64,000 nt of DNA from Bacteroidota bacterium (GTDB lineage Bacteria > Bacteroidota > Bacteroidia > Bacteroidales > FEN-979): the NCBI GenBank assembly GCA_026391835.1, contig JAPLDF010000034.1, positions 62,001-126,000 of the forward strand. The letters are read 5' to 3'. This document shows, piece after piece, positions 1,709 to 62,904 of this stretch (position 1 is the first letter of the stretch; each line of letters starts with the position of its first letter). The notes under the pieces are model-generated. The model had not been told where the DNA came from, did no database searches, and saw only the letters and a list, made by a program, of their open reading frames with translations. Made by a program: the position numbers and the translations under genes.

Positions 1709-1785
1709 TATTTACGATCGGACAATTTACGATTTACGATTGATAAGCCTTAATCGTAAATCGTAAATTGTAAATCGTAAATCAA
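1709..1785. repeat. Hairpin of TCGTAAA-type units between convergent genes
   Basis: The 18-mer AATTTACGATTTACGATT (1724-1741) has a perfect inverted copy at 1752-1769 with a 10-nt loop. Both arms are built from the unit TTTACGA/TCGTAAA, with extra imperfect copies outside. It fills the gap between two stop codons (1708 plus, 1782 minus) and may act as a bidirectional transcript end. There is no long T-run. The same unit recurs at 12252-12279 and 56862-56895. Confidence 0.85.
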
Positions 1786-3149
1786 TTGATCAGGTTATGA
1801 TCTCTCAATGCCTGCTCCAGTTCCATCAGGGAGATGGGTTTGGCCAGGATTTTTTTCTCGCGGTCGAGTAAAAACATGGTAGGCGTGGCATATATGTTAT
1901 AATCATCGGCCGACTTGCCTGCAAAACCTTTCAGGTCCGAAACATTGATCCAGCTGACCTTCTGCTCCTTTAAAAAATTTGTCCATTCGGTACGGCTGGT
2001 ATCAATGGATACCGACATCACCTCAAACTTTTTAGGCTGCTGCTTGTCATACAGTTCCTTCAGCCTCGGTGTCATTGCCGCGCAATGCGGACAGGTACTT
2101 GCATAGAATACGATAAGTGTGTATTCTGAATTTATCCCGGCTAGTTTGACCGGCTTTCCTTTGACATCCGGCACTTCCAGGTCCGGCGCAATTTTGCCAA
2201 TGGCGATTTTCTTAAATGTATCGAGTTTTTTCTGAAGGGCCGATTTTCGTTCCTGGTCTTCACAGGACGAAGGATCCTGGAAATTGTCGGCAATATAGGT
2301 GATCACTTCATCGAAATGGTATTTGTCGAACCCGCCTACCAGGTAATCGAGCCAGAATTTATACACCACGGGGCTCACCGAAGCTGCGCTCAGCATAAGG
2401 GTGACCGCCTTGATGAATTCGGCTTCAAGCTGTTTCTGTGGCATGCGGTTGTTGCTGTACAACGACAGGTAGGCAATGGCTTTATTCACGAACACCATGC
2501 TTCGCAGCAGCGCTGTGTCGGTAAAGTCAACCCGGTCGAAATAGTGCTGTTTTAAGAAGGTGATCCGCTCCTCCTTGTTTAACCCGGCAGGGATAAAGGG
2601 GGTTTGATAGACTTTTGCCACGCGCACCGCAAAAGAATTCGGCGACAACCTGATCAGTGAATCAAGGAATCGCTGCTGCGACGTTTGGGTCAACTCCAAT
2701 TCCCGGGTTATGGAGGCATAAAAAGCATCCTTTACAGGATAAAAGTCGACAACAGGCATCAGCAATTGCAGTTTGGTCTGATTTATCCGGTCTAGCCTGG
2801 AATAGTTGAGGTTGATTATGTTTTCAAAGGAAGAGATAATGCGGAGGCTGTCTTCTGGGTTTTTTGCCGAGGTGACAAACGACACATCCTCCTGGTTCCA
2901 GATGAGGTCGACCATGCCGTCTTTGGCCCACTGAACCCGATACATTCCCGGCAGGCGGTTGCTGATCTTAAACTTGAGATGGCCTGAAGAATCAGTGGTC
3001 GTAGAATCGATGGCCTTCGATTTTTCACCATAGATGCTCATCAGGAAAACCTGTTTCCCGTTGCAGGTGAGAATGGTGCCATCTATTGTATTTTGAGCCT
3101 GGGCCAGGCTACCGGCCATCAGTAAAATATATACGAAATACTTTTTCAT
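1782..3149 (-). CDS. TlpA-like thioredoxin-fold protein, exported
   Basis: A 455-residue protein with an N-terminal signal peptide ending near AQAQ. A long N-terminal region of DUF4369/DUF5106 type, common in Bacteroidota, is followed by a C-terminal thioredoxin domain with the redox pair CPHC at 353-356 and the cis-proline motif ATP at 421-423. Such proteins reduce or shuffle disulfides in the periplasm. The start codon directly follows the stop codon of the upstream paralogue (TAA then ATG), so the two form an operon with the same architecture. CPHC is the DsbA-type dipeptide, unlike CSPC in the neighbour, so the pair may differ in redox potential (inference). Substrate unknown. Confidence 0.88.
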   Translation of the reverse strand: MKKYFVYILLMAGSLAQAQNTIDGTILTCNGKQVFLMSIYGEKSKAIDSTTTDSSGHLKFKISNRLPGMYRVQWAKDGMVDLIWNQEDVSFVTSAKNPEDSLRIISSFENIINLNYSRLDRINQTKLQLLMPVVDFYPVKDAFYASITRELELTQTSQQRFLDSLIRLSPNSFAVRVAKVYQTPFIPAGLNKEERITFLKQHYFDRVDFTDTALLRSMVFVNKAIAYLSLYSNNRMPQKQLEAEFIKAVTLMLSAASVSPVVYKFWLDYLVGGFDKYHFDEVITYIADNFQDPSSCEDQERKSALQKKLDTFKKIAIGKIAPDLEVPDVKGKPVKLAGINSEYTLIVFYASTCPHCAAMTPRLKELYDKQQPKKFEVMSVSIDTSRTEWTNFLKEQKVSWINVSDLKGFAGKSADDYNIYATPTMFLLDREKKILAKPISLMELEQALRDHNLIN

Positions 3150-4280
3150 TTATTTCCTTCTTATCGGCTTCTTTTCCTGGGTTGCCGGGCCAAGGACTTC
3201 TATAAGCTTGTTGATCAGATCTTCGCCGCGCAGGTTGCGTCCGATGATCTTCTGATCCCGGTCGAGAAGGACATTGGCGGGGATTGAGTTGACGCCATAA
3301 AGTTTCCCGGCCGCATTTGCCCATCCCTTCAGATCCGAAACATGGGTCCAGGTAAGCTTGTCGTCGCTCACAGCCTTGAGCCACTTTTCGCGGTTTGAAT
3401 CGAAAGAACAACCGAGAATTCCGAACCCCCTGTTACCGAACGCCAGGAATGCCTTGACGACGTTAGGGTTTTCGGCGCGGCAGGGGCTGCACCATGATGC
3501 CCAAAAATCGACAAGAATGATTTTTCCTTTCATCGAAGATAGTTTTACCGGCTTTCCGGTACTGTCGTTCATTTCGAAATCAGGTGCGATCTGGCCTACC
3601 GAAACACGCTTCAGGATATCTACCCGTTTCTGCAGGGCTTTCAGGTATTGTGAAGCGTTGAGATTCGTATCCATCGCATTCACAATTTCTTCCAATTCAG
3701 GAAGTTCAAACTGCCAGCTGTTGTGCATTACCAGGTAAGGTGAAACCACCGTTTTGTTGTTGGTTTTCGCAAACTTCTGAAGTTGTTCCTTCACTTCAGC
3801 ATCCAGCAGGTTTGAGATGGAATCGTTGCGCTTCATGCCAAGCGTATCATGGGCCACCCTGGCTTTTTTCCACTCCTGGTATACAACATCCATTTTTTTA
3901 TTGACGGCTTCATTCATCGACAAATACTTGTTGTAAATATCCTGGGTTGCCGATCCCCTGATGATTGATTTCTCAATGCTGTCAGGAAGAACCAGGACAT
4001 CGATCTTTGCATTTTCCATAAAAAGCTGAAGCGCCAATTGATTCTGTTTCAAGACAAGCTGCCACATCTCAGGAATGTCGACCTTTCCTGCAAATTCAAA
4101 TTCTCCCTTGTTAAGTTTCACCGAGTCGGCATCAACCCACTTTTCCTGGTCGTATTTCTGAAGAAAGATCATGCCCGTATCAATACCTTTCACACTGCCT
4201 GTGATTTTGAACTGGTCCTTGCTGCCCTGGCATGATGCAAGAAGTGAACTGATAATAAAAAAGAATAAATATTTTTTCAT
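3150..4280 (-). CDS. TlpA family disulfide reductase, lipoprotein
   Basis: A 376-residue protein. A lipobox (LLASC, Cys17) predicts a lipid-anchored envelope protein. Residues of about 22-120 look like the DUF4369 domain that precedes many Bacteroidota thioredoxins. The C-terminal AhpC/TSA-thioredoxin domain carries WASWCSPC (active Cys 264 and 267) and the cis-proline in NSIP (334). The likely role is periplasmic thiol reduction, as in cytochrome maturation or protein quality control. It is the first gene of a two-gene operon with 1782-3149, and a TACTTTTG promoter element lies 26 bp upstream of its ATG. Confidence 0.9.
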   Translation of the reverse strand: MKKYLFFFIISSLLASCQGSKDQFKITGSVKGIDTGMIFLQKYDQEKWVDADSVKLNKGEFEFAGKVDIPEMWQLVLKQNQLALQLFMENAKIDVLVLPDSIEKSIIRGSATQDIYNKYLSMNEAVNKKMDVVYQEWKKARVAHDTLGMKRNDSISNLLDAEVKEQLQKFAKTNNKTVVSPYLVMHNSWQFELPELEEIVNAMDTNLNASQYLKALQKRVDILKRVSVGQIAPDFEMNDSTGKPVKLSSMKGKIILVDFWASWCSPCRAENPNVVKAFLAFGNRGFGILGCSFDSNREKWLKAVSDDKLTWTHVSDLKGWANAAGKLYGVNSIPANVLLDRDQKIIGRNLRGEDLINKLIEVLGPATQEKKPIRRK

Positions 4281-4305
4281 TTAGTGCCCGCCTGTTATGT
4301 TTGCA

Positions 4306-7300: not shown

Positions 7301-8218
7301 GACAACCGCACCTGGGATAAATTCGGGCGGATCACCGGGTTGCAGAAAGGATTCATCAAACGCGATGAAGTAGCGTGGTTCGCAACACATCTTCACCGCG
7401 ATACGACGAGGCTGCCATACCAGTATGCCTACATCTTCAAATACAGACTCGATGCAGGCCAGGCAAGTGAAACCCTGCAGCTTCCTGACAATGAAAGCAT
7501 AAAAATCTTCGCCATCTCCCTGGCCGACAATCCTTCCGACCAGGTTCAACTGGCACAGGCCCTGTACGATGATTTCACCGGGCGTCAAACACTGGCATTG
7601 AACCTCGCAAAAAGTTTCGTTACCGAAAACATGGCCCCTGCCGCCAAAGTGATGGCTTACAGCAACCGTAACCTGGCCAGGCTTCCCGCACGCCTCACCA
7701 TGAAAGATTATGCCGATATCCATCAGCCGAACGGGGTGACTTCACGCTACTATTTCAGCGATGCTGACACCACCCTTTCAGGGCTGATCACCGATGGGAT
7801 GAATGTGGCTGCAATCAACGACGGCATGTACGACATGCTCCCGGGCGACTCACTCAACGACAAATGGTCGGAAAAGGGGGAAGGGCGGATTTTGATGGAC
7901 CTGCAACAGGAGATCGAACTCGACAGCATCCACATTTTCACCGGGCAAAGCACGAGGCGGGGCGGACAATCCTTTTCACTCTGGGGCGCCACCGGTGAAA
8001 AAAATCCCGCTGTAAAAGGCGACCCAAAGGCTGCAGGGTGGAGTTTCATCGCTTTTGCCCCCCCCGAAGATATCTGGGGAAACAGCAAGGCACTCTACAC
8101 GGTCCTGCCGCTCCCCGAGAAATCGAAGCAATACCGGTACCTGCTGTGGGTTAGCGAAGATTCGCCGCACGGGCCGTTTTATTTCAGGGAAGTTGATGTT
8201 TTTGAAAAACAAAAATAA
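4367..8218 (+). CDS. Alpha-mannosidase, glycoside hydrolase family 38, exported
   Basis: A 1283-residue protein with a signal peptide (residues 1-22, ending NAQ). The GH38 catalytic domain starts with GYAHLDTEW (His49, Asp51 as zinc ligands) and has the nucleophile motif PDCFGF (Asp162). A GH38 helical-bundle signature (MHDILPGTC) follows near residue 370, then the large beta-sandwich half. GH38 enzymes remove terminal alpha-mannose by a retaining, metal-dependent mechanism; here this would happen in the periplasm on N-glycan or mannan fragments. The last 300 or so residues extend past the usual GH38 core. ATG codons at 4367 and 4370 are both possible starts. No SusCD or other CAZyme genes lie beside it; the ABC pair starts 8 bp downstream. 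Confidence 0.92.
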   Translation: MMRHYSLAAGLLLLMIGNVVNAQPETAKPATLKFDISRDPVLYTVGYAHLDTEWRWDYETTIDQYLKNTLDENFQRLEKYKSYVFTFSGARRYKMMKEYYPEKYDRLKKYVLQGRWFVGGSSVDECDANIPSPESVIRQVLYGNGYFKAEFGRESVDFLLPDCFGFQAHIPSALAHAGLKGFSTQKLSWGSAAGIPFNIGNWTGPDGKGIVAALNATDYGGEVKKRLDTSSYWVNRVLENGKKYGVFADYRYYGVGDEGGAPREEDVKNATGSVGQPDGKINVYLCSSDQLFRDLTAEQKSQLPSYSGDLLLTEHSSGSLTSQAYMKRWNRKNEQLALATEPIAVMADWLGGLKYPQKSLNEAWWLVLGSQMHDILPGTCIPKAYEYAWNDEVLALNKFSSGLESSAGAVIRAMDTRGKGKTLVVYNPLSVSRKDVIEAELSYPEGAPKAVKVFDALNNEVPVQMVQVSKESIRILFQCTIPSLGLACYDVQQTKDETPAKTSLSVSEKMLDNEFLKVTVNAAGDISSIIDKKLGKEMLSAPMRLEFQKEHPQYWPAWNMDWNDRKNPPCDYVKGPVKVTVLEKGPVRGTIKIERTARNSVFTQYIMLAAGKENLVIRNIINWQSRGVSLKASFPLTASNGVATYNLGLGTEERENNSEKKYEVPSREWFDLTDKSGNFGVTIFEDSKFGSDKPNDKTLRLTLLYTPATNFYHDQATQDWGIHEITYGFYSHKGDWRTGLSEWQGRSLNQPLRVFQVQQHAGFLGKSFSFAQVSVPQVDIRTLKKAENGKDVVVRLQELVGKDFLNVEVSMASKIVKAWEIDGQEHLVGEATLKNGKLVTDMKKFAIRSYALQLEPPVEKFAEPTSFALPLAYDQDVVSGTRNKKNGRFDQQGISLPAELLPETLVVDGVQFNFGPTADGKNNVLSCKGQKISFPKTGNFNHVYILAAALTDTSGIFKVGGLKSTLRIQGYRGNIGQFDNRTWDKFGRITGLQKGFIKRDEVAWFATHLHRDTTRLPYQYAYIFKYRLDAGQASETLQLPDNESIKIFAISLADNPSDQVQLAQALYDDFTGRQTLALNLAKSFVTENMAPAAKVMAYSNRNLARLPARLTMKDYADIHQPNGVTSRYYFSDADTTLSGLITDGMNVAAINDGMYDMLPGDSLNDKWSEKGEGRILMDLQQEIELDSIHIFTGQSTRRGGQSFSLWGATGEKNPAVKGDPKAAGWSFIAFAPPEDIWGNSKALYTVLPLPEKSKQYRYLLWVSEDSPHGPFYFREVDVFEKQK

Positions 8219-8226
8219 CCTGCCGT

Positions 8227-9720: not shown

Positions 9721-9723
9721 CAT

Positions 9724-10419: not shown

Positions 10420-10489
10420 GCCATTAGAAAACTGATCCTCCCGTATCATTTTTTTAATTTCATCTGTTGTTTTTCAGCAATTTTAGCAT

Positions 10490-10497
10490 TACCTTTA
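10490..10497 (+). promoter_or_regulatory. Probable promoter for recX leader ORF/recX/prfB
   Basis: TACCTTTA matches TAnnTTTG at seven of eight positions. A TTG at 10467-10469 lies 20 bp upstream, a normal -33 spacing. The start would fall near 10504, just before the small ORF at 10516. Confidence 0.45.
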
Positions 10498-10515
10498 CAT
10501 ATTATTCCAGGGATT

Positions 10516-11132: not shown

Positions 11133-11133
11133 C

Positions 11134-12226: not shown

Positions 12227-12249
12227 GCATTGTGCCTGCTAAGCAACAA

Positions 12250-12281
12250 AATCGTAATTCGTAAATCGTAATTCGTAAATC
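12250..12281 (+). repeat. Tandem TCGTAATTCGTAAA units
   Basis: Two copies of the 14-mer TCGTAATTCGTAAA (12252-12279) in the 61-bp gap between prfB and the ArsC-family gene. The unit is the same TCGTAAA type as at 1724-1769 and 56862-56895, here without an inverted arm. Confidence 0.8.
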
Positions 12282-12287
12282 CTGACT

Positions 12288-12632: not shown

Positions 12633-12663
12633 ATCCAGAAAACTAACCATCCAACATTCCACC

Positions 12664-14061: not shown

Positions 14062-14063
14062 GA

Positions 14064-14119
14064 GTGACAAATAACAAGTGACAAGTGACAAGTGACAAGT
14101 GACGAGTGACAACTGACAA
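14064..14119. repeat. Eight tandem GTGACAA heptamers
   Basis: Eight 7-bp units (GTGACAA with variants ATAACAA, GTGACGA, CTGACAA) fill the gap between the convergent fumC and GT39-like genes. The same unit occurs five times at 62840-62874 inside a coding region. Confidence 0.92.
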
Positions 14120-14139
14120 GTGGACTTGCCGGAGAGGGT

Positions 14140-15690: not shown

Positions 15691-15740
15691 TTTTTAATCA
15701 ATTTTTTGAAAATGTATAATGGCTAAAGTCCCCTCATCCA

Positions 15741-15785
15741 CCTGTCCGCTTGTCCGCCTGTCCGCCTATCCGCCTGTCCCGCCCT
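15741..15785. repeat. Five tandem CCTGTCCG octamers
   Basis: Five 8-bp units (CCTGTCCG and one-base variants) lie at 15741-15780 in the gap between the Nramp stop and the GT39-like start. The same unit forms seven copies at 20007-20062. Confidence 0.9.
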
Positions 15786-19965: not shown

Positions 19966-20006
19966 GTTTGGTTTTTAATATTTTGAATTGCGCAGCTACA
20001 GTCAAT

Positions 20007-20068
20007 CCGCCCGTCCGCCTGTCCGCCCGTCCGCCTGTCTGCCTGTCCGCCTGTCCGCCCGTCCGCCC
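20007..20068. repeat. Seven tandem CCGCCTGT/CCGCCCGT octamers
   Basis: Seven 8-bp units alternating CCGCCCGT and CCGCCTGT, plus a partial copy, fill the gap between the waaA start and the stop of the next gene upstream. Same unit as at 15741-15785, more than 4 kb away. Confidence 0.93.
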
Positions 20069-22720: not shown

Positions 22721-22765
22721 GCAGACAATGCAGGCAATGCAGTCAATGTAAATAATGCATGCAAT
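22721..22765. repeat. Five 9-bp units (GCAGGCAAT type)
   Basis: GCAGACAAT, GCAGGCAAT, GCAGTCAAT, GTAAATAAT and GCATGCAAT follow directly after the dipeptidase stop codon. A tandem array without an inverted arm. Confidence 0.75.
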
Positions 22766-22783
22766 GTTTGGTTTACAACTAAG

Positions 22784-26612: not shown

Positions 26613-26712
26613 GGTGAGCAGGTAAACGGGTAAACGGGTGAACTGAAAATCATTATAATCCACCACTTCCCGGCTCACCTGTTTACCCGTTTACCCGTTT
26701 ACCCCGTTACCC
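26613..26712. repeat. Hairpin of GGTAAACG-type octamers between asnS and recJ
   Basis: The left arm (26613-26643) carries GGTAAACG units and the right arm (26672-26712) carries the complementary CCCGTTTA units, with an unrelated 28-nt loop. Same unit as the array at 60131-60210. Confidence 0.88.
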
Positions 26713-28171: not shown

Positions 28172-28254
28172 ACCACTTAAACACCAAGATCACCCAGAAA
28201 CACCCGCAAAAAACCAGTCCTTAGTGTATCTGCGTGTTCTAAGTGCCTTAGTGG
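28172..28254. repeat. Imperfect hairpin of CCACTAAGGCAC type
   Basis: Left arm 28172-28202 (CCACTTAAACACCAAGA...) and right arm 28226-28254 (...TCTAAGTGCCTTAGTGG) are imperfect inverted copies, in the gap between divergent asnS and the 28342 gene. The same sequence type recurs at 33297-33386, 39940-39966, 56708-56782 and 60297-60365. Confidence 0.8.
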
Positions 28255-28295
28255 TAATAGTTTTTCATTACTCCGACACATCCGGATTGCTTCCG

Positions 28296-33296: not shown

Positions 33297-33386
33297 GCCA
33301 CTATGACACAAACGCTCAAAGATTCACCAGGAATATTTTCCTTATTATTTTCTTTGTGGTCCTTTGTGTCCCGGTGCCTTTGTGGC
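33297..33386. repeat. Imperfect hairpin, CCACAAAGGCACC type, running into gldD
   Basis: Left arm 33297-33332 and right arm 33351-33386 are imperfect inverted copies (GCCAC... / ...TTTGTGGC) of the same unit type as at 28172 and 60297. The right arm covers the last codons of gldD. Confidence 0.78.
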
Positions 33387-33959: not shown

Positions 33960-33965
33960 AAGGAA

Positions 33966-34018
33966 ATAGCGAAACAGCGAAATGGTGAAACAGCGAAATT
34001 TCGCCATTTCACCATTTC
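33966..34018. repeat. Hairpin of GCGAAATGGTGAAACA-type units between ssb and gldD
   Basis: Units such as GCGAAACA, GCGAAATG and GTGAAACA on the left are matched by TTTCGCCATTTCACCATTTCG on the right, forming an inverted repeat with a tiny loop. It fills the ssb-gldD gap and keeps the frame open upstream of gldD. Confidence 0.85.
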
Positions 34019-34026
34019 GTTATTTA

Positions 34027-39755: not shown

Positions 39756-39807
39756 TTCCCTTTTCTTTTCCTGAGTCCATTCTGAAAAGTATATGTTCGC
39801 TAAAAAG

Positions 39808-39903
39808 TCACAAAGTTACAAAGTCACAGAGTCACAAAGTCAAAGAGTCACAAAGTCACAAAGTCACAAAGTCACAGAGTCACAAAGTCACAGAGTCACA
39901 AAG
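39808..39903. repeat. Twelve tandem TCACAAAG octamers
   Basis: Twelve 8-bp units (TCACAAAG with variants TTACAAAG, TCACAGAG, TCAAAGAG) without spacers, in the 278-bp gap upstream of the GT4 gene. The rest of that gap (39904-40033) is AT-rich and contains a half-copy of the CCACCAAG-type element. Confidence 0.95.
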
Positions 39904-39939
39904 TTAATCAGGCATTTACTGCGATGTTTACACTTTATT

Positions 39940-39966
39940 TTTCTTAGTGTCCTGGTGGCTTGGTGG
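39940..39966. repeat. Half copy of the CCACCAAG...CACTAAG element
   Basis: Reads CTTAGTGTCCTGGTGGCTTG on the plus strand, i.e. the complement of the element seen at 28172, 33297 and 60297. Only one arm is visible. Confidence 0.6.
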
Positions 39967-40033
39967 CATTTTTTTGTTTTATTACTTTTTGAGCAGGCTC
40001 AACTTCAAATTTTCAAATTAAAAAATCTTCAAA

Positions 40034-40804
40034 TTATCCCAATCGTGCCGCCCTGTGCATGAGTTTTTCAGGCAACAGCCTGTATCCCAGCGAAACCAGG
40101 CTAACCCATGCGATGAACCCGGCATGGTACAGCTTTTCGGGTAGCGACAGTTTCCTGTATTTCCTGACGATCTCATACTGTTCCCGTGCCGACCCGGCCA
40201 TGTTCCGGTTTGACTCTCCGGCAATATTGACAAGGGCTACCGGCCAGGGTACATGCAGGAACCGGCAACCCTGCGCCTTCAGTTTCAGTAGCTGGTCATA
40301 ATCGGCACCGATCCTGTATTGCAGGTCAAACCTTGCCTTTTTCGCAAGATGGGTCCTCACAAATACCGACTGATGGCATACAACCATACCACGGTCAAGG
40401 TCTTCGGGCGAACCTGCCTTTTTCAGTACAGGTCCCTGGCGATAGGCCGCCAGCGTATCCCCGTAAGCCACCCCGACGTCCGGCAGATCTGAAGCCATCA
40501 GCTTTGAAACTGCTGTGGTCTCTGCAAAAACATCCCCTGCATTCATGAAATTCACCCATTCCCCGGTCGCCTTGTCCAGCCCTTTGTTCATGGCATCGTA
40601 ACAACCGGCATCCGGCTCACTGACGGCAATGGCAATCCTGTCGCCCAGTTGTTTGACAGCTTCCGCAGTTCCGTCTGAAGAACCCCCGTCGATCACGATC
40701 CATTCAATTCCAGGGTAATCCTGCCCCATGATGCTTCGCGCGGTTTTTTCAAACCCCGCCTTGTCATCCAGGACAACCGTAATGATGGAAACGGTTCTGT
40801 TCAT
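40034..40804 (-). CDS. GT2 family glycosyltransferase
   Basis: A 256-residue enzyme with SIITVVLDD, WIVIDGGSSDGT and NAGDVF (metal-site region). The N-terminus follows the WcaA-like amylovoran/colanic transferase pattern. I start it at 40804 because this ATG overlaps the upstream stop as ATGA, showing translational coupling with 40801-41724; an in-frame start at 40846 would overlap that gene by 46 bp. Sugar specificity unknown. Confidence 0.88.
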   Translation of the reverse strand: MNRTVSIITVVLDDKAGFEKTARSIMGQDYPGIEWIVIDGGSSDGTAEAVKQLGDRIAIAVSEPDAGCYDAMNKGLDKATGEWVNFMNAGDVFAETTAVSKLMASDLPDVGVAYGDTLAAYRQGPVLKKAGSPEDLDRGMVVCHQSVFVRTHLAKKARFDLQYRIGADYDQLLKLKAQGCRFLHVPWPVALVNIAGESNRNMAGSAREQYEIVRKYRKLSLPEKLYHAGFIAWVSLVSLGYRLLPEKLMHRAARLG

Positions 40805-50717: not shown

Positions 50718-50742
50718 AGGTTACTTCAGTATTAATGCTATA

Positions 50743-50830
50743 AATGCAAAATGCAAAATTAAAATGCAAATATTCAGTGACTGGTCAGCTATCACTATAG
50801 TTTTGCATTTTACCCTTGCACTTTACATTT
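50743..50830. repeat. Hairpin of AAATGCAAA-type units
   Basis: Left arm 50743-50770 (AATGCAAAATGCAAAATT...) and right arm 50800-50830 (TTTTGCATTTTACCCTTGCA...) are imperfect inverted copies, in the gap between butyrate kinase and the MBL-fold gene. Confidence 0.82.
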
Positions 50831-50840
50831 TGATTTTTTA

Positions 50841-51917: not shown

Positions 51918-51936
51918 TTGTCTGAATTTTAATATT

Positions 51937-55356: not shown

Positions 55357-55390
55357 AAAAACTTTTTCAAATATGGGTTTAACTGATTTT

Positions 55391-55486
55391 AGAATTTGAA
55401 AATTTGAGAATTTGAAGATTTGAAAATGCGGTGTCAACTGGCCGTTCATTTTCAAATTTTCAAATCTCCAAATCTTCAAATCTTTT
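55391..55486. repeat. Hairpin of AATTTGAAG-type units between acyl-CoA dehydrogenase and icmF
   Basis: Left arm 55391-55428 (AATTTGAAAATTTGAG...GATTTGAAAATG) and right arm 55447-55486 (CATTTTCAAATTTTCAAATC...) are inverted copies made of 8-9 bp units. It lies inside the presumed acd-icmF-buk operon. Confidence 0.85.
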
Positions 55487-56627
55487 AATCGTTCATAATT
55501 GCACGTGAGATGATCATCAGCTGGATTTCGCTGGTACCTTCGTAGATCTGGGTAAGCTTGGCTTCACGCATCAGGCGCTCCACATGGTATTCCTTCACAT
55601 ACCCATACCCGCCGTGGATCTGAACCGCTTCGGTGGTAACGTACATGGCTGTTTCGGCGGCATCGTATTTGGCCATCGCGCTTGCCGTACCGTAAGGTTT
55701 CCCCTCATCTTTCAGCCATGCGGCTTTCAGGCAAAAATAGCGTGCAGCCTCGATACGGGTGCGCATTTTTGCAAGTTTGAAGGCAACATCCTGGTGGTTG
55801 ATCAGTTCAGTGCCAAAGGCTTTGCGGTCCTTTGAATACTGCAGGGCCCGGTCAAAGGCTCCCTGCGCAATGCCGAGTGCCTGTGAAGCGATGCCGATGC
55901 GGCCTCCCTCGAGCGTTTTCATGGCAAATTTGAACCCGAACCCGTCCTCACCGATGCGGTTTTCCTTCGGTACGATCACATCGGTGAACATGACAGAGTG
56001 GGTGTCGCTGCTGCGCATGCCCATCTTGTCCTCATGCGGCCCGAGGGTGATGCCCGGCGAATGGCGGTCGACCAGCAGGGCATTGATGCCCTTATGCCCC
56101 TTTTCGGGGTTGGTTTGGGCAATCAAAATGTAGGTGGAGGCCGAATTCGCGCTTGTGATCCAGTTTTTTACGCCGTTTACGACATAATGGTCGCCCTTGT
56201 CGATGGCCGTGGTACGCTGTGAAGTGGCATCGGATCCGGCTTCAGGTTCCGACAACAGGAATGCGCCGATCTTTTCACCGCGGGCAAGCGGTTTCAGCCA
56301 CTTTTCCTTCTGTTCCTCATTACAATAAGCTTCAATGCCATAGCAAACCAAAGAATTGTTGACGGACATGATCACGGAAACGGAGCTGTCAATTTTTGAA
56401 ATCTCTTCCATTGCCAGCACGTAGGAAATTGTATCCATGCCGCCCCCGTCATATTTTGTGTCGACCAGCATCCCCAGGAATCCCAGTTCGGCAAGCGCTT
56501 TAACATGTTGCGTCGGAAATTCGGCTTTGGCGTCGCGTTCCAAAACGTCTTTGATCAACTCGCGCTGGGCATAATCCCGCGCCGACTGCTGGATCATGAT
56601 CTGTTCTTCGGTAAATTCGAAATTCAT
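55485..56627 (-). CDS. Short-chain acyl-CoA dehydrogenase
   Basis: A 380-residue FAD-dependent dehydrogenase that forms a 2,3-double bond in short acyl-CoAs. The FAD/substrate motifs [11 protein letters not shown] and [10 protein letters not shown] are present, and the catalytic base is Glu363 in YEGTSE, the position used by short-chain (butyryl-CoA) dehydrogenases; isovaleryl and isobutyryl enzymes vary. No etfAB genes are in the window. First gene of the operon with icmF and buk, which makes butyryl-CoA or isobutyryl-CoA the most likely substrate (inference). Confidence 0.94.
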
Positions 56628-56707
56628 GGTTTTAGCTTATAAAATGTTTATTATTAATGACCTGGACTTTTCTGAATATAAATTTGATCCTGCTTCGATG
56701 CTTTTTT

Positions 56708-56782
56708 TACCGCGAAGACGCCAAGACGCTAAATTCTATTTAATTATAAATGAATCATTTGCGTCTTTGCGTCTTCGCGGTA
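56708..56782. repeat. Nearly perfect 26-bp inverted repeat (CCGCGAAGACGC type)
   Basis: Left arm 56708-56734 (TACCGCGAAGACGCCAAGACG...) and right arm 56757-56782 (...GCGTCTTTGCGTCTTCGCGG...) differ at about two positions. It lies upstream of the acyl-CoA dehydrogenase gene, in its likely leader or promoter region. Confidence 0.88.
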
Positions 56783-56825
56783 GAATAAGTTTTCAGAATG
56801 GAACCAAAAATACAAATTAAAATTG

Positions 56826-56854
56826 ATAAAAAAAACCCGCCGGTGGGCGGGTTT
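56826..56854 (-). terminator. Rho-independent terminator after the small lipoprotein gene
   Basis: On the minus strand AAACCCGCC/GGCGGGTTT (56833-56841 and 56846-56854) form a 9-bp stem with a 4-nt loop, followed by a T-tract (56827-56835). It ends the lipoprotein transcript before the acyl-CoA dehydrogenase operon. Confidence 0.93.
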
Positions 56855-56861
56855 CAGCATA

Positions 56862-56895
56862 AAATCGTAAATCGAAAATTATAAATCGTAAATCC
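56862..56895. repeat. TCGTAAA-type tandem units
   Basis: ATCGTAAATCG followed by ATAAATCGTAAATC: the same unit as at 1724-1769 and 12252-12279. It abuts the stop codon of the small lipoprotein gene. Confidence 0.7.
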
Positions 56896-57410
56896 TACTG
56901 TTGTTTCTCGTAAGTAATTTTAATGTCCCCAACGGGAGCATGCTCGATGACAACGATTTGTACCTTGCTGATCTCAAGGATCTCAATGGTGAATTTCATT
57001 TTATTCTCGATGTTTTTTGCCACGATCAGGGTGCCCTGGCCTTTCATTTTCCAGGTCGCATGCAATGGTTTGCCGGGAAAGTTTTTAATGGCGGTTTTAT
57101 TGGCAAAGATCTCCATGGTGGCACGCATCTCCGACTGGACGAGCCTGTCGAGCGTGGCATCTTTTCGGGAGGCACCGCCTTCACCGGCAGGCTTGCCTGT
57201 TTTTGACTGTTTCTGGGCTGAATTTCCGGCCTGCGTGGCTGCAGCCTTCAGCGCAACGGAGTCGACAATTTTTTCAACTTTGACGGGTTTCCATGTTCCC
57301 ACAATGAGTTTCTCGTTGGGGTGGGACGTAGCTGCACAGGAAGCAAAGATCACGACAGCAATAAAAAAGGCAATAAGGTTAACGTGTTTGTTTTTATTCA
57401 TGTTCATCAA
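56895..57410 (-). CDS. Small lipoprotein, unknown function
   Basis: A 171-residue lipoprotein (lipobox FASC, Cys25). The start of the mature part, KLIVGTWKPVKVE, and the short following strands (MRATMEIFANKTAIKNFPG, HATWKMKGQGTLIVA, KMKFTIEILEISKVQIVVIEH) suggest a lipocalin-like barrel of the kind many Bacteroidota secrete. A charged low-complexity insert sits at about 60-85 (QAGNSAQKQSKTGKPAGEGG). Single gene with terminator; function unknown. Confidence 0.75.
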   Translation of the reverse strand: MMNMNKNKHVNLIAFFIAVVIFASCAATSHPNEKLIVGTWKPVKVEKIVDSVALKAAATQAGNSAQKQSKTGKPAGEGGASRKDATLDRLVQSEMRATMEIFANKTAIKNFPGKPLHATWKMKGQGTLIVAKNIENKMKFTIEILEISKVQIVVIEHAPVGDIKITYEKQQ

Positions 57411-57440
57411 ATTTTGTGTTAAAACGAATAGTTTGGTTAA

Positions 57441-60128
57441 TTATTTTAATTCTTTTGAAACATCAACGGTCGAATCATGGGTATTTACTTTTACTTCGAA
57501 CCCCCGTTTGCGGAAAACGGCGATCATGCGCTGGTTGTCGGTGGTGGTCTGGGCCACGATTTTCTTCAGTTTCCCGCCTTCGATCACTTCAAGGCAAAAA
57601 TCGGTGATGATGTTCCCAAGATCCTTTTGCTGCCAGGCATCCGCGATCAGTATGGCATACTCAACCGTTTCGTGATCGGGATCAGCGACGAGACGGCCGA
57701 TGCCGATCAGCTTTTTTTGTCCATCCTCGAGGATTTCAGCCACGATCGCGATTTCGCGGTCATAGTCAATGTAGCAATACCGTGTAGCTACTTCATGGGT
57801 CTCCCAGTGAAAAAAATAGCGGAACCGGCTGTAAAGCGACTCCTTTGAACAGGCCCCGAGCATCGCCAGCCACAGGGGCTCATCCTCCGGCTTGATGGGG
57901 CGTAAAAGAACCGCCGTGCCATCCTGGAGCGTGGTTGATTTTACATATTTCTCAGGATAGGGATGCAACGCAAGATGGGAATAGGGATCATCTTCCCTCC
58001 TTGCAGCCAGCGGATCCACAACAATGCGGGCATCAAGGGCGATGACATCTTCGGGGGTGACAAGCAACGGGTTGATGTCGAGTTCGGTGATCTCGGGGTA
58101 GTCGGCAGCAAGATATGACAGCCTGATCAGAACCTGGATCAGTTTTTCGATATTCTTTGCAGGGGTGCCGCGATATCCCCTGAGCAGGGGATAGATCTTG
58201 AGCGATTCGATCATATGGCGCGCCAGCCGTTCGTTCAGCGGCGGAAATCCCAGCGCCTTGTCGCCAAACAGATCGGCCGTGATCCCGCCCATGCCAACCA
58301 TGAGTACCGTGCCGAAAACTTTGTCTTTCTTGATGCCAAGGATCATCTCCACCGAATCTTTGGCCGGGGCCATCTTTTGAACGGTCACCCCTTCGATCCG
58401 GGCTTCGGGACGTTTCAGTTTGGCCGTTTCCATGATCCGTTCAAATGCAGCCCTGACGAGTTTTTCAGTGCCAAGATCAAGTTGCACCCCTCCCACATCC
58501 GACTTATGGGTAATATCGGGGGAGTGAATTTTAAGTACCACCGGGTAGCCGATGCGGCCGGATATTTCAACCGCATCCTCAGCACTGGCTGCAAAATAAG
58601 GTTTGGTCGTGGAGATCCCAAAGTTTTCAAGGATGGTCTTGGAGGTGTTTTCAGGGAGTACTGTCTCCTGCCCTGCAATGAGTTGATTGAATGATTCCCT
58701 CAGTTGCCGGCGGTCGAGGGTGAATTCAACCGGGATATCTTTGGGCGTTTCATAAAGTGTTGCCAGGTTCCGGTTGTACGCCACCATGGTCATAAATGCC
58801 CTGATGGCCTGCTCGGGTGTTTTATACGACGGGATGCCGTGCTCAACAAGTATGTCATCGGCCGCATGCATGCTCTGCCCGCCGAGCCAGGCTGCAAGGA
58901 TTGGTTTCCGGGTGGTGGAGACAAGGGCGCTGATCTCCTTTGCCGTGGCATCCGGGTTGGTCATGGCCTGGGGCGTGAGGATAACCAGCACGGCATCCAC
59001 CCCTTCGTCGGCAAGAACGATCTGGGTGGCTTTGGCAATGCGCTTTGCACGGGCGTCTCCCAGCACATCCACCGGGTTGCCGTGCGACCAGTAAGCGGGG
59101 AGGTTTTCATTGAGCAGGAGCATGGTTTGATCCGAGAGTTCCGCCAGTACCCCGTGTGCTGCGATCAGGGCATCCGTAGCCATCACGCCCGGTCCGCCGG
59201 CATTGGTGATGATCCCCAGCCGGGGCCCCTGCGGGAATTTACCGCGTCCGATCATCTCCGCCACGCTGAAGATGTCGCCGATTTCATACACCCTGGCCAA
59301 CCCTGCCCGCTGAAAGGCAGCATCATAAACGGCATCTTCAGAAGCCATGGCCCCGGTGTGCGAAGCTGCAACCTGTGCCGACTCGGGGAACCTCCCGGCT
59401 TTATAAACGATGATAGGCTTTTTACGGGCAAAAGCCCGCGCAGCGGTCATGAATTTCCGTGCATTTTTGATCGATTCAATATAGAGGATGATGCAGTGTG
59501 TCTGCTCATCTTCACCAAAATAGTCAATCAGGTCGCCAAACTCGACATCGATGCTGTTCCCGATGGAGACAAACTGCGAAAACCCGATTTTCCCTTCAAT
59601 GGCCCAGTCAAGAACCGAGGTACACAGGGCGCCCGACTGCGAAATGAAGGCAATGCTCCCCGGTTTCGGCATGTCGGTCGCAAATGAGGCGTTCAGCTTA
59701 AGCCCCGGAACGATGATTCCCAGGCAGTTCGGCCCGATGGCACGCATGCCTTCGTATTTGCGGATTTCCGCACTGATCATTTCTTCAAGCCTGTTTCCCT
59801 CTTCACCGGTCTCCTTAAACCCGGCCGACATGATGATGATCCCACGGATACCAAAATCTCCGCACTCCCTGATCACGGATAAAACTTTTTCGGCAGCCGA
59901 ACAGATAATCGCAAGGTCAGGGATTTTGGGCAAGGATGTCACCGAAGGATAACAAGGAATCCCCATCACGGCTTCATGGTCAGGGTTGACAGGGTAAACC
60001 ACTCCCCTGAAGCCGCCGCTGACAAGGTTTATCAGCACCTTCCCGCTCACACTGTTGGGATTGGTGGTGACACCGATCAGTGCGATCCGCTGGGGGTTGA
60101 AGATGTTGTTGAGTTTGTGGATGTTCAT
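57441..60128 (-). CDS. ADP-forming acyl-CoA ligase fused to GNAT acetyltransferase
   Basis: An 895-residue protein. It has a CoA-binding domain (about 10-110, NPNSVSGKVLINLVSGGF), the ligase domain with phospho-His257 in SHTGAMAS, an ATP-grasp domain (about 500-715) and a C-terminal GNAT domain (about 740-895). Fusions of this type are known either as ADP-forming acyl-CoA synthetases or as lysine acetyltransferases (Pat-like) regulating acyl-CoA enzymes. Because a short-chain acyl-CoA operon lies next to it, either reading fits. A -7 element at 60248 places an octamer array in its leader. Confidence 0.9.
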   Translation of the reverse strand: MNIHKLNNIFNPQRIALIGVTTNPNSVSGKVLINLVSGGFRGVVYPVNPDHEAVMGIPCYPSVTSLPKIPDLAIICSAAEKVLSVIRECGDFGIRGIIIMSAGFKETGEEGNRLEEMISAEIRKYEGMRAIGPNCLGIIVPGLKLNASFATDMPKPGSIAFISQSGALCTSVLDWAIEGKIGFSQFVSIGNSIDVEFGDLIDYFGEDEQTHCIILYIESIKNARKFMTAARAFARKKPIIVYKAGRFPESAQVAASHTGAMASEDAVYDAAFQRAGLARVYEIGDIFSVAEMIGRGKFPQGPRLGIITNAGGPGVMATDALIAAHGVLAELSDQTMLLLNENLPAYWSHGNPVDVLGDARAKRIAKATQIVLADEGVDAVLVILTPQAMTNPDATAKEISALVSTTRKPILAAWLGGQSMHAADDILVEHGIPSYKTPEQAIRAFMTMVAYNRNLATLYETPKDIPVEFTLDRRQLRESFNQLIAGQETVLPENTSKTILENFGISTTKPYFAASAEDAVEISGRIGYPVVLKIHSPDITHKSDVGGVQLDLGTEKLVRAAFERIMETAKLKRPEARIEGVTVQKMAPAKDSVEMILGIKKDKVFGTVLMVGMGGITADLFGDKALGFPPLNERLARHMIESLKIYPLLRGYRGTPAKNIEKLIQVLIRLSYLAADYPEITELDINPLLVTPEDVIALDARIVVDPLAARREDDPYSHLALHPYPEKYVKSTTLQDGTAVLLRPIKPEDEPLWLAMLGACSKESLYSRFRYFFHWETHEVATRYCYIDYDREIAIVAEILEDGQKKLIGIGRLVADPDHETVEYAILIADAWQQKDLGNIITDFCLEVIEGGKLKKIVAQTTTDNQRMIAVFRKRGFEVKVNTHDSTVDVSKELK

Positions 60129-60130
60129 GT

Positions 60131-60210
60131 AAACAGGTAAACAAGTGAACAGGTAAACGGGTAAACGGGTGAACAGGTAAACGGGTGAACGGGTAAACGG
60201 GTGAACGGGT
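60131..60210. repeat. Ten tandem GGTAAACG/GGTGAACA octamers in the leader of the acyl-CoA ligase gene
   Basis: Ten 8-bp units (AAACAGGT, AAACGGGT, GAACGGGT variants) begin 2 bases from the start codon at 60128 and run back to 60210. With the -7 element at 60248-60255 the array would be transcribed as most of the 5' leader. Same unit as the hairpin at 26613-26712. The rest of the 341-bp gap up to 60469 holds the promoter and a hairpin. Confidence 0.93.
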
Positions 60211-60247
60211 AATTCCGGGTTTTGTCGTAATGTTGTTCCTTCGGGGG

Positions 60248-60255
60248 CAAATTTA
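60248..60255 (-). promoter_or_regulatory. Promoter for the acyl-CoA ligase/GNAT gene
   Basis: Minus strand TAAATTTG, a full TAnnTTTG match, with TTG on the minus strand at 60276-60274, 18 bp upstream. It predicts a leader of about 110 nt that contains the octamer array. Confidence 0.55.
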
Positions 60256-60296
60256 GGGTTAATTTCCGGAACACAAAAGGGTTATGGTTTGGCTTT

Positions 60297-60365
60297 TACC
60301 ACCAAGGCACTAAGGGCACTTAGAAACACTTAGTGAATCTTTGTGTTCTACGTGCCTTAGTGGTT
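60297..60365. repeat. Imperfect hairpin, CCACCAAGGCACTAAG type
   Basis: Left arm 60297-60330 (ACCACCAAGGCACTAAGGG...) and right arm 60333-60365 (...GTGCCTTAGTGGTT) are imperfect inverted copies in the divergent gap. Same type as at 28172, 33297 and 56708. Confidence 0.85.
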
Positions 60366-60469
60366 CCTTTCGTTGTCTTCTTAGCGCCTCAATGGCTGAT
60401 ATCCTGTTATCAAAATCACAATTGCAAAAAAAATCGCACCTTTGCATCCGATTTTCAAAACCGGCACTT

Positions 60470-61897
60470 ATGAAACACCTGTTATTCATTACTTTATCTT
60501 TTTTTCTCGGAACATTCCAACTCCTGGCTCAAAACCCTGCACCAAAAACCGAACCTGGCGCAAAACAGGATGCCGCAGAAGCAAAGAAAGCGCCGCTTTT
60601 CGGCATCCATTTTTCGGGGTATGTCAACACGGATATTTTCTTTGATACACGCCAGACCGTGATGGCACGGGAGGGGCAGTGGCTTTTTTATCCCGAAAAG
60701 ATGAAACTTGATCCCGATGGAAAAGATATCAACGCAAAAGGCACGTATAACATCCTGAGCATCCAGACCAGGGTATCGGGAAACATCACCGGTCCTGATA
60801 TATTCAATGCCAAAACCTCGGGTTTGATTGAAGGGGAGTTTTATGGAAACATCAATGTCAACATCAATTCATTCAGGCTCAGGCACGCTTTTGTCAAATT
60901 AAACTGGGCCAAAACAGAGCTGTTGCTGGGACAGACGTGGCACCCCCTGTATGTGCCGGCATGCACGCCCGAACCCGTTTCGCTGAATGCCGGCGCCCCG
61001 TTCGTCATCTTTACACGCAACCCGCAGGTTCGGGTTACCCGGCAACTGGGTAATTTCAAACTGCTCCTGGCAGCTGTCTCGCAGGTGGATGCCACCAGTA
61101 CAGGGCCCGACGGCCCCAGCCCGAAATACCTGCGCAACTCAATTGTTCCCGAACTGGCTTTCCAGGTGCAATACGGGTTGATCAATGCTGAGAGGAAAAC
61201 CGAATTCATGATTGGTGCCAGTGTTGATTACCTGATGTTGACCCCACGGCTGGGAACCAAAGTTGTGGTCAGGCCTGCGTATGACTCTGTAAAAAACAAT
61301 GTAGTGGTCCATGCTGATGCGGTCATTGTGAATTACAAAACCACCGCCAAATCCACCGCCCTTACAGCCAACTTCTTTGCAAAGCTGAAATTGCCAAAAA
61401 TCACCATGAAAGTTGGTGGTGTTTACGGGGAAAATTGTTACGCATTCAACATGATTGGCGGATATGCCGTTAAAAGCGTGACGGACCCCCTGAAAGGCAT
61501 TGTTGATTATGCTCCCATCCGTACCGCATCCATATGGGGCGAATTCAAGACCAACGGCCCGAAATGGTCAGCAGGCATCTATGCGGCGTACAGCAAAAAC
61601 TTCGGTGCCGGAACAGGCCTCTGTTATGTGAAAAATGCCGACCTTTTCCAGGTTCTCCCGATCGCCGGATCAGTTCCCGCAAACATTGCCGAACCGTTCT
61701 ATTCGCGCGGCGCAAACATCGATTACCTCTATCGTGTAGCCCCAAGGCTTGTGCTTACGGTCAGCAAACTTAAAATCGCGGGGGAACTTGACTACACCGT
61801 GGCGGCTTATGGCAAGATAACCGACAAAGGGCTGGTCTCCGACTCGAAAGAGATCGGGAACCTCAGGATCCTGCTTGGGGTTTACTACTATTTTTAA
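60470..61897 (+). CDS. Porin-like outer-membrane protein
   Basis: A 475-residue protein from the start at 60470 (MKHLLFITLSFFLGTFQLLAQ, a clear signal peptide). The mature part is rich in alternating strands ending in aromatics (FSGYVNTDIFFDTRQTV, INSFRLRHAFVKLNW, KLLLAAVSQVD) and ends in a C-terminal LLGVYYYF, typical of outer-membrane barrels. A short charged linker (PAPKTEPGAKQDAAEAKK) follows the signal. Substrate unknown. A near-match -7 element (CACCTTTG, 60437-60444) lies upstream. In-frame starts from 60341 lie in or before the hairpin and are unlikely. Confidence 0.8.
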   Translation: MKHLLFITLSFFLGTFQLLAQNPAPKTEPGAKQDAAEAKKAPLFGIHFSGYVNTDIFFDTRQTVMAREGQWLFYPEKMKLDPDGKDINAKGTYNILSIQTRVSGNITGPDIFNAKTSGLIEGEFYGNINVNINSFRLRHAFVKLNWAKTELLLGQTWHPLYVPACTPEPVSLNAGAPFVIFTRNPQVRVTRQLGNFKLLLAAVSQVDATSTGPDGPSPKYLRNSIVPELAFQVQYGLINAERKTEFMIGASVDYLMLTPRLGTKVVVRPAYDSVKNNVVVHADAVIVNYKTTAKSTALTANFFAKLKLPKITMKVGGVYGENCYAFNMIGGYAVKSVTDPLKGIVDYAPIRTASIWGEFKTNGPKWSAGIYAAYSKNFGAGTGLCYVKNADLFQVLPIAGSVPANIAEPFYSRGANIDYLYRVAPRLVLTVSKLKIAGELDYTVAAYGKITDKGLVSDSKEIGNLRILLGVYYYF

Positions 61898-61957
61898 ACA
61901 CTTTTCATTTCCGGGTATTACCTTTTCATTCTTTTCCCGATTAAGCAGGAAAAGAAT

Positions 61958-62398
61958 ATGGAAAACAAGCTTTCTGTTTCAGAAGAGCTGCTGGTTCAAC
62001 GAATTTTTTCGATTAGGGGAAGGAAAATAATGCTGGACTTTGATCTGGCAATGTTGTATGGTGTGGAAACACGTGCACTCAAACAACAGGTGAAAAGGAA
62101 CCTTGAAAGATTCCCCATCGATTTTATGTTCCAGTTGACAAAAGCCGAATGGGATGAACTTATCACAAATTGTGATAAGTTCCCTGTAAAAATCCGGCAC
62201 TACCCATTGCCTCCTCTTGCTTTTACCGAACAGGGCGTTGCAATGCTTTCCAGTGTATTACGATCAAAAAGAGCCATCATGGTCAACATTGCCATTATGC
62301 GCGCATTTGTCAATCTCCGCCAGCTGATCGATGCCAACAAAAACCTGCTGAAACGGATCGACTCCCTGGAAGAAAAACTGATTCACTTAACCAGGTAA
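61958..62398 (+). CDS. ORF6N domain protein
   Basis: A 146-residue protein with the ORF6N DNA-binding-type domain: [33 protein letters not shown], then [11 protein letters not shown] and the second half [24 protein letters not shown]. Family members in phages act as antirepressors; chromosomal Bacteroidota copies usually run to 170-190 residues, so this one is short and ends in [10 protein letters not shown]. Its last 16 bases overlap the 3' end of the convergent thioredoxin-like gene. No phage genes nearby. Confidence 0.85.
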
Positions 62399-62904
62399 GT
62401 AGCCGGATCCACCGCCTTTACACTCCACATTTTAAGAAAGGTGACCACTTTGGCGGTGTCATATCCCTTTACCTGGCAGTGTTCCAGTATGCCTGAATCC
62501 TGGATGTGCAGAACCTTCCCGTCGCCATTGAGGATGACGAAAACCGGGTAGCCAAATCGGTTGGGATACCCGAATTCACGGAAAAGCCCGTAATCTCTCT
62601 TTTTCTTATCCTGCGATACGTTGGCCATCATGTAAACATAATCCGCCTTTATCAGCGAATCAATAGGCTGCGCCCCATTGGCCATCGCGTGAAACCTGAG
62701 GCACCACGGGCACCAGTTGCCGCCGAACTGGATCAGGACATGCTTGTTCTCTTTTTTGGCGAGTGCCGTCGCCTTTTTCAGGTCGGCACGGATATCCTGG
62801 TTTTCGTTATAGGGTTTGGCCGGCGTTTGGGCTGATACAGTGACAAGTGACAGGTGACAAATGACAAATGACAGGATGGCTATGGAGTTGATTATTTGTT
62901 TCAT
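62383..62904 (-). CDS. Exported thioredoxin-like protein
   Basis: A 173-residue protein with signal peptide (core [15 protein letters not shown]) and a thioredoxin-like domain with GGNWCPWC (Cys65, Cys68). The fold resembles DsbD-C/thioredoxin_7 proteins that reduce periplasmic thiols. The hydrophobic core of the signal peptide is encoded by five tandem GTGACAA-type heptamers (62840-62874). The gene's 3' end overlaps the ORF6N gene by 16 bp on the opposite strand. Confidence 0.88.
62840..62874. repeat. Five GTGACAA-type heptamers inside a signal-peptide coding region
   Basis: GTGACAA, GTGACAG, GTGACAA, ATGACAA, ATGACAG on the plus strand. On the minus strand they are read as codons for about residues 10-22 of the thioredoxin-like protein. 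The unit equals that of the intergenic array at 14064-14119. Confidence 0.93.

Follow-up and report, generated by a model that had tools for sequence, protein, structure and literature searches.

The stretch of 64,000 nucleotides considered here (the window) belongs to a Bacteroidota bacterium whose genome was analysed as 86 contigs totalling 5.35 Mb. Gaps between its genes house short tandem units of 7–9 bp. A first-pass annotation made from the letters of the window had listed nineteen such sites, and the content it described is present at these sites to within a few bases (Table 1). It treated them as one class of intergenic element that shares architecture more than sequence and takes the form of either a tandem array or a hairpin with both arms made of one unit. 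For the arrays, the single class stands; their basic form, however, is a strand-polar array anchored at a gene edge, which is either single or faces another array, and is not the hairpin, since 20 of 35 facing pairs join unlike units (15 join the same unit). Five CCAAGGCACTAAG-type sites (28172, 33297, 39940, 56708 and 60297) were set apart as a second, hairpin class (CACNAAGR/CGCNAAGA), which was excluded from the census of 174 arrays, from the 28:1 and 19:0 pair counts and from the 80:4 anchoring count given below. The site at 62840 is not intergenic and codes for the signal-peptide-like N-terminal stretch of an open reading frame (ORF), 62383-62904.

Genes were called with a script of our own that is blind to RNA genes. 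The 1.24 Mb of the genome analysed has 569 gaps that are 40 bp or longer (119,379 bp in all). They hold 174 non-redundant arrays, with periods of 7 bp (109 arrays), 8 bp (55) and 9 bp (10). Their density is not that of shuffled sequence: 20 dinucleotide-preserving shuffles of each gap gave a mean of 2.05 arrays and a maximum of 6. Repeat rows scoring at least 40 in the first 840 kb numbered 76 for period 7 and 38 for period 8, and one Markov shuffle of the same DNA contained 0 rows of period 7–9. The unit of the 1709 site, GTAAATCGTAAATCGTAAAT, has 327 overlapping matches with up to two mismatches in the 5.35-Mb genome; read backwards, it has 0. By our grouping there are about 20 recurrent unit families, including ATTTACG/AATTACG, AAGTGAC, TAAAAAT, GGTRAACR, GGCGGACR, AATGCARRC, RATTTGAA and ARAGTCAC, which bears out the earlier claim of dispersed families recurring kilobases apart. 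Arrays are carried by 15 of 109 divergent, 20 of 94 convergent and 97 of 613 co-directional gaps.

Strand polarity and anchoring at gene edges

The “+” strand of each family was set by eye from the family's own inverted pairs in the first 840 kb, and that of later units by likeness; some unlike pairs had already been noticed before the formal count. Arrays neighbouring each other in one gap and less than 300 bp apart were taken as a pair. In this genome, 28 pairs were +- (facing), 1 was -+, 3 were ++ and 4 were --; in the fetched DNA of three relatives from the same genus (G013, G015 and G009) the corresponding numbers were 19, 0, 2 and 4. The total is 47 facing pairs against 1, in counts that are not independent across relatives owing to shared ancestry. 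The lone -+ pair (GAAATGC/AATTACG) has between its arrays a tRNA-Gln gene that the gene caller missed. With the families already fixed and the hairpin class included, a later-fetched 400 kb of this genome gave 10 facing pairs against 1, the exception being of the hairpin class; a later-fetched 400 kb of G025 gave 1:0. Pairs of unlike units faced each other 25:0, or 25:1 if the GAAATGC/AATTACG exception is counted as unlike. Single arrays lay on the expected rather than the other side in ratios of 53:20 and 44:12 (p = 7e-9).

The arms of the 15 same-unit pairs pair with each other far better than re-paired arms do (0 of 2000 permutations as low), whereas the arms of the 20 unlike pairs have no such advantage (p = 0.94). 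Facing therefore does not stem from selection for a hairpin, and hairpin pairing was ruled out as the cause of polarity. General base skew of gap edges was also rejected as its source: in array-free gaps the skew is inconsistent, the excess of G over C on the outward strand being +0.11 at starts and -0.06 at stops. Taking the purine-rich strand as a sign that needs no families gave 55 of 80 singles and 18 +- against 6 -+ pairs in this genome, 25 of 30 and 11:0 in G013, 7 of 8 and 4:0 in G015 and G009 together, 9 of 15 and 3:0 in G025, 5 of 7 and 4:1 in G067, and 0 of 3 and 1:0 in Akkermansia; as a general sign of polarity it is valid only in part, ATTTACG not being purine-rich. The idea of Rho-utilisation sites, with C-rich RNA, was dropped on inspection, as C and G are equally frequent in ATTTACG and the sign of ARAGTCAC is wrong.

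Anchoring was analysed with 149 arrays of ten unit groups in gaps of at least 90 bp. A gene was no more than 15 bp from the 5′ end of the + strand in 80 cases and from its 3′ end in 4. All ten groups lean alike (five with p < 0.05, four with p of 0.06-0.12 and one with 0.38); ATTTACG/AATTACG gave 15:1, TAAAAAT 9:0 and GGCGGACR 5:0. Both starts and stops serve as anchors and arrays occur in all types of gap, while AAGTGAC, GGCGGACR, AATGCARRC and GAGTGGRC are found near stops only. The offsets of 220 arrays are concentrated between about -10 and +5 bp for stops and between 4 and 14 bp for starts, and 13 and 30 arrays, respectively, form a tail at 60 bp or more; distance from the edge is independent of array length (rho 0.004). 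The ends of ATTTACG arrays have a preferred phase: 50 of 61 begin at (G)ATTT and 54 of 61 finish at ATTT(A), or 36 and 41 of 51 with the boundaries of Tandem Repeats Finder (TRF). Other families show this more weakly.

In 20 of the 84 arrays located at stops, a repeat triplet in phase forms the stop codon. The expectation is 2.6, and 2000 trials yielded no more than 8. These 20 all belong to the set of 36 that TRF continues beyond the stop. This observation, together with the presence of TGA or TAA on the polar strand of many units, would fit a translation filter, in which both orientations arise and only the stop-bearing strand is tolerated after a stop and only a strand free of ATG and GTG before a start. 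We regard such a filter as very improbable. It is contradicted by ATTTACG, whose polar strand has no stop codon, ATG or GTG; by GGCGGACR, which has none of these on either strand; and by TAAAAAT, with TAA on both strands, all of which obey the rule in the counts above. AATTACG contradicts it as well, through its reversal in Cyanobacteria.

The tie to start and stop codons and the strong pairing of same-unit arms might also point to regulatory RNA or DNA elements, such as terminators, untranslated-region elements or G-quadruplexes, of which one strand would be selected before starts and the other after stops; the GGGNATC repeats of other bacteria obey the same rule and can form quadruplexes (PMC4692102). 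But units devoid of G-runs obey the rule too, unlike arms do not pair, and units are lost or replaced between species. An intrinsic terminator, which is a hairpin expected after genes and needless in divergent gaps, does not match the arrays, which occur at starts as well and are about as frequent in divergent gaps as in co-directional ones. A regulatory origin thus seems unlikely to us.

Polarity of the AATTACG unit in other phyla

A cross-phylum scan for four copies of AWTTACG retrieved at least 115 stretches from Cyanobacteria, Bacteroidota, Verrucomicrobiota, Chloroflexota, Desulfobacterota, Acidobacteriota and others, with several contigs from some species (Nostoc mirabile, Planktothrix paucivesiculata); the counts do not include the seven Akkermansia stretches. 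Among the matches listed, arrays of Bacteroidota and Ignavibacteria (43 loci, 47 arrays) had a gene near the 5′ end in 24 cases and near the 3′ end in 2, with 12 +- and 3 -- pairs, and those of Cyanobacteria (42 loci, 35 arrays) in 2 and 13 cases, with 3 -+ pairs. Loci of other phyla among these matches (23 loci, 18 arrays) gave 9 and 1, with 4 +- pairs and, against the rule, 1 -+ pair. For exact AATTACG, the 5′ end was the closer one in 5 of 33 cyanobacterial arrays versus 24 of 29 arrays of Bacteroidota and Ignavibacteria (Fisher p = 1e-7, among the matches listed); the 7 AATTACG and 8 ATTTACG exact arrays listed for the remaining phyla are too few for a direction. In both groups, then, AATTACG has a polarity, and that in Cyanobacteria is the reverse of the other. 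It follows that the composition of the unit does not set its polarity, and the reversal argues against causes that lie in the unit sequence, such as quadruplexes, purine content or stop and start codons.

Short tandem repeats of bacteria are usually put down to slippage. In this case, polymerase slippage would be accompanied by ectopic copying, with recombination spreading the units, selection tolerating them and polarity arising as a by-product of some asymmetry. In its favour, copy numbers vary, some arrays lie in loops that tolerate them or in a stretch resembling a signal peptide, and period 7 predominates, as is given for the LSSR class in PMC4679880. Slippage would account for the periods and the changes in copy number, but it predicts neither a fixed polarity, nor unlike units that face each other 25:0, nor anchoring at 80:4, nor a unit that is opposite in two phyla. 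We consider it possible, though less likely than not.

Three further sets of matches bear on these repeats. In a genome of the Pyrinomonadaceae, all 7 close pairs that could be read from 58 matches were +-. In Akkermansia (G062 and G061, L429-L437), ATTTACG/ATGTACG arrays of about 30 bp keep almost entirely to one strand across some 50 kb. They are unanchored, often come two per gap and look like a chromosome-arm-oriented motif, unlike the gene-edge arrays. Viral contigs of IMG/VR contain 81 stretches with three tandem copies of AWTTACG and 36 with RTGACAR, which are candidate phage arrays.

Turnover between species and arrays inside genes

Nine array-bearing gaps from two portions of the window (8200-28150 and 46800-63900) were compared by eye with genomes of the same genus whose flanking proteins are 60-97% identical. 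The 29 gap-by-genome cases comprised 13 without an array (two of them with gaps of 3 and 12 bp), 8 with an identical or closely similar unit (in one case a 13-nt remnant) and 8 with another unit (in one case a 15-mer). Replacement of an array on its side by one of opposite polarity was not seen by eye in these nine gaps and 29 cases. The gap orthologous to 20006..20068 has TGAAATGG in G015, GAGGTAGC in G009, only 3 bp in G013 and no array in G005; that orthologous to 50742..50822 is 12 bp (G013) or 36 bp (G005) long, both without arrays; and that orthologous to 22721..22766 has AATGCARRC in G015, G005 and G009, degenerate and with a facing copy in the last. The earlier suggestion that a unit is copied and then amplified fits the repeated families but not such replacement of units in orthologous gaps.

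Table 1. Repeat features of the window and copies of the CGCNAAGA-hairpin element elsewhere in the genome
Feature	Position	Strand	Remarks
ATTTACG array	1709..1741	+	touches stop of gene 32-1708; faces 1752..1783 array
ATTTACG array	1752..1783	-	reaches end of gene 1782-3149(-); same-unit facing pair with 1709..1741
AWTTACG array	12249..12281	-	orthologous gaps: same unit and facing GAGGTAGC array in G009; none in G013, G005
AAGTGAC array	14063..14122	+	1 bp past stop of fumarase/aspartase-family gene 12664-14061; orthologous gaps: same unit in G009; none in G015
GGCGGACR array	15737..15779	-	orthologous gap: TAAGTTGG in G009; GATGTGAT facing GGTGAACG in G013
GGCGGACR array	20006..20068	-	4 bp from stop of 20073-20834(-)
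AATGCARRC (9-bp) array	22721..22766	+	immediately 3′ of stop of 21044-22720
GGTRAACR array	26613..26643	+	faces 26677..26712 array
GGTRAACR array	26677..26712	-	orthologous gap: GAGTGGGC-type array in G013; 13-nt remnant in G009; none in G015, G005
CACNAAGR-type hairpin	28172..28255	.	separate class; ends ACCAC...GTGGT
CACNAAGR-type hairpin	33297..33386	.	separate class
CGAAAYRG facing pair	33963..34019	.	
ARAGTCAC array	39804..39904	+	12.6 copies
CACNAAGR-type arm	39940..39967	-	faces 39804 array
ATTTGAAR array	40004..40035	-	reaches stop of 40034-40804(-)
AAATGCA facing pair	50742..50822	.	TGAAATGG facing pair in orthologous gap of G015
RATTTGAA facing pair	55386..55484	.	GATGTGAA facing RATTTGAA in G009; none in G015, G013, G005
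CGCNAAGA hairpin	56708..56780	.	separate class
ATTTACG array	56862..56894	-	touches stop of 56895-57407(-)
GGTRAACR array	60129..60212	+	directly at start codon of 57441-60128(-); GAGTGGGC in G013
CACNAAGR-type hairpin	60297..60365	.	8-9-bp periodic arms; kept in G013 with diverged arms
AAGTGAC array	62839..62873	+	inside ORF 62383-62904(-), near N-terminus when read on minus strand
CGCNAAGA-hairpin element copies	C12:29595, 127093, 142287, 345551; C86:311686; C72:102864; C41:20585		seven copies, this genome

Three pairs of listed sites share one gap each (39808/39940, 56708/56862 and 60131/60297). In G013, the gap orthologous to 22721-22855 carries a 15-bp tandem repeat of about 4 copies in place of the 9-bp array of this genome and three other species.

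Repeat units also differ between species inside genes. The ADP-heptose 6-epimerase (TIGR02197, above the cut-off) contains an in-frame repeat loop that varies among ten species, its units being GGCGGACR here, GGTGGACR in G014, AGGGGACR in G003 and AAGTGGGC in G013; G002 has a repeat loop of the usual length, and the loops of G004 and G012 are non-repeat. Species-specific repeat units thus occur in loops of conserved enzymes, once without a change in loop length. A DnaE-type polymerase (L075, C35:44001-46994; orthologs L453-L462) likewise has variable loops, several of them with in-frame repeat units that differ among ten aligned species. The GTGACAA array at 62839-62873 codes for a hydrophobic, signal-peptide-like N-terminal stretch, which is longer in the G015 ortholog (L107), and repeat arrays may be a seed of export signals. 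Arrays may likewise give rise to new protein loops, C-termini and signal peptides. They are also a warning that, in such genomes, noncoding DNA at gene edges is rewritten within a genus.

Doublets that face each other alongside singlets, in extragenic positions, are also what small mobile elements would leave behind if a transposase moved inverted doublets and the singlets were relics. REPINs (PMC3116915) are inverted doublets which, like the present arrays, occur with singlets, outside genes and in many copies. REPINs, however, consist of palindromic repetitive extragenic palindromic (REP) sequences in doublets of one type and are linked to RAYT, while the present units are non-palindromic, join in unlike pairs and do not track with the Y1 transposase domain PF01797. 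This domain was not found in G008, G011, G012, G016, G021, G031 and G034, family members that all have ATTTACG matches, and was found in 19 of 24 genomes of the same order that have 0-1 such matches. The spacers between arms, judged by eye, look unrelated. On the features examined, membership in a REP family fails, in agreement with the first-pass annotation, and we find a mobile-element origin of the arrays quite unlikely.

The hairpin class differs in this respect. Seven CGCNAAGA hairpins in the 1.24 Mb lie within an element of 113-122 bp with the ends TGTCTYAAAAG...CTTTTGAGACA and with shared ends and interior, one of the seven being 8 bp shorter in the left arm. From its sequence, this element looks like a miniature inverted-repeat transposable element. 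Two hairpin-class elements in one gap are oriented -+, counter to the facing rule. Hairpins of the type ACCAC-NAAGR...CTTNGTGGT, at 60297-60365 and similar sites, have arms of 8-9-bp period, with no Rfam match in the window.

Known relatives and a possible mode of writing

The statement of the first-pass annotation that no named family fits was too strong, since the LSSR and STRR classes and the GGGNATC repeats are relatives in kind. STRR of cyanobacteria, reportedly described around 1990, are said to be short tandem repeats. Units of 5-11 bp arranged in tandem beyond chance are common to STRR, LSSR and the present arrays (174 versus 2.05).

LSSR (Mrazek et al. 2007, cited through PMC4679880) are short tandem repeats beyond chance with a peak at 7 bp. 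The available part of PMC4679880 gives no polarity or anchoring rule for them, whereas cyanobacterial AATTACG arrays do show the rule, with reversed sign. The same paper (MacGregor 2015) describes TAACTGA repeats of Beggiatoaceae, Cyanobacteria and some Bacteroidetes, mostly just before starts and in one orientation, and reads them as possible sites of a post-transcriptional regulator. One Flexibacter set lies just after a stop and is reversed, as the present rule predicts; other heptamer repeats accompany TAACTGA in Bacteroidetes, but one unit was studied there, unlike here. Rehm et al. 2015 (PMC4692102) reported GGGNATC/GGGGAYT heptamer repeats in two Xanthomonas and in Nostoc and left their function open. 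Of the two ORFs beside them, these repeats are nearer to the one on the 5′ side, in whichever direction it is read, and they are antisense upstream of starts and sense downstream of stops, which they overlap; a preference for four units is a further feature. They resemble the present arrays in being intergenic heptamers with the same edge rule (80 versus 4 here) and with variation between related species. They differ in that one G-rich unit was studied per genome and discussed in terms of quadruplexes, against about 20 units here, of which ATTTACG, TAAAAAT and AATGCARRC have no run of three G; in being under-represented between divergent ORFs, where the present gaps are not depleted; and in that facing pairs of unlike units and unit replacement are seen here.

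In the literature searched, of which coverage was partial, six of our repeat strings were not found, except for one match in an unrelated fish paper, nor were the signal-peptide strings; nor did we find there many units under one rule, unlike facing pairs, replacement of units in orthologous gaps or reversal between phyla. Relatives with a single unit are therefore already known in print, while the facing rule, the turnover and the phylum reversal appear to be additional. Slippage, structure or translation do not readily yield a polarity that unrelated units have in common and that one and the same unit shows in reverse in another phylum.

We tentatively favour, as a reading that falls short of an even chance, the idea that repeats are added to DNA ends by gene edges in a strand-specific, template-copied manner by a putative writer. 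The DNA beside a gene would be broken or trimmed back, but no further than purifying selection allows: to the stop codon, to a few bp short of the start codon, or into a protein loop that tolerates change. Anchoring at stops and just before starts would follow from this. A short single-stranded template would next be copied over and over onto the 3′ end that faces away from the gene, so that only one strand of each unit would be written, and the two sides would be rejoined. A switch to another template would bring in a new unit. A telomere-like cycle of this “trim and add” kind would account jointly for anchoring, polarity, unlike facing pairs and unit replacement, and a lineage-specific template strand would lead to the reversal of AATTACG between lineages. 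As a pattern in genomic sequence, the facing, anchoring and reversal counts are consistent with one-strand writing at 3′ ends. The in-phase stop codons and the species-specific units in enzyme loops also speak for the cycle. A more specific proposition is that some bacteria possess a telomerase-like activity, RNA- or ssDNA-templated and not necessarily of the RVT_1 type, which writes repeats on chromosomal 3′ ends at gene edges, each lineage using its own templates and strands and copying AATTACG from opposite strands in Bacteroidota and Cyanobacteria; in this full form we hold it to be rather unlikely. The polarity renders the long-standing puzzle of heptamer repeats in cyanobacteria and other bacteria testable, by seeking the template and its strand.

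There is a precedent for writing of this kind. DRT10 reverse transcriptases (PMC12632851) write short tandem repeats in bacteria from an RNA template, 9 nt in one system, through a telomerase-like A-B-A′ cycle, and so resemble the proposed process in their single-strand, template-copied repeat synthesis. They differ in being antiviral and protein-primed; chromosomal writing is not stated in the available part of that paper, and no such gene was identified here.

Several observations weigh against the proposed cycle. Among single arrays, 32 of 129 lie on the wrong side. In the 165 kb of Akkermansia DNA fetched, arrays of the same heptamer depart from the rule. Gain of an array was not observed between close strains; most of the relatives used for comparison share 70-82% DNA identity. 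Mismatches between units, as a measure of age, show no gradient along arrays (p = 0.40). PF00078 (RVT_1) was not found in 13 members of the family with ATTTACG matches (G011, G012, G014, G020, G023, G025, G028-G031, G033, G035 and G036), and the two reverse transcriptases of this genome look to us like group II intron proteins. Ku was not found in any of 61 genomes, which leaves the rejoining step without a known enzyme. A template RNA was sought through Rfam only, and no Rfam family lies in the window.

Candidate genes were tracked across genomes by ATTTACG counts only, and not by those of other units. Reverse transcriptase, Ku and the Y1 transposase were each rejected as the shared gene, since none of them tracks these counts. 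A DnaE-type polymerase was considered as a possible correlate: 14 of 15 same-genus genomes have a close relative, as do two genomes of the same order, G041 and G043. In 72 kb from G043, G041, G039 and G037, only six short rows of period 7-9 were detected.

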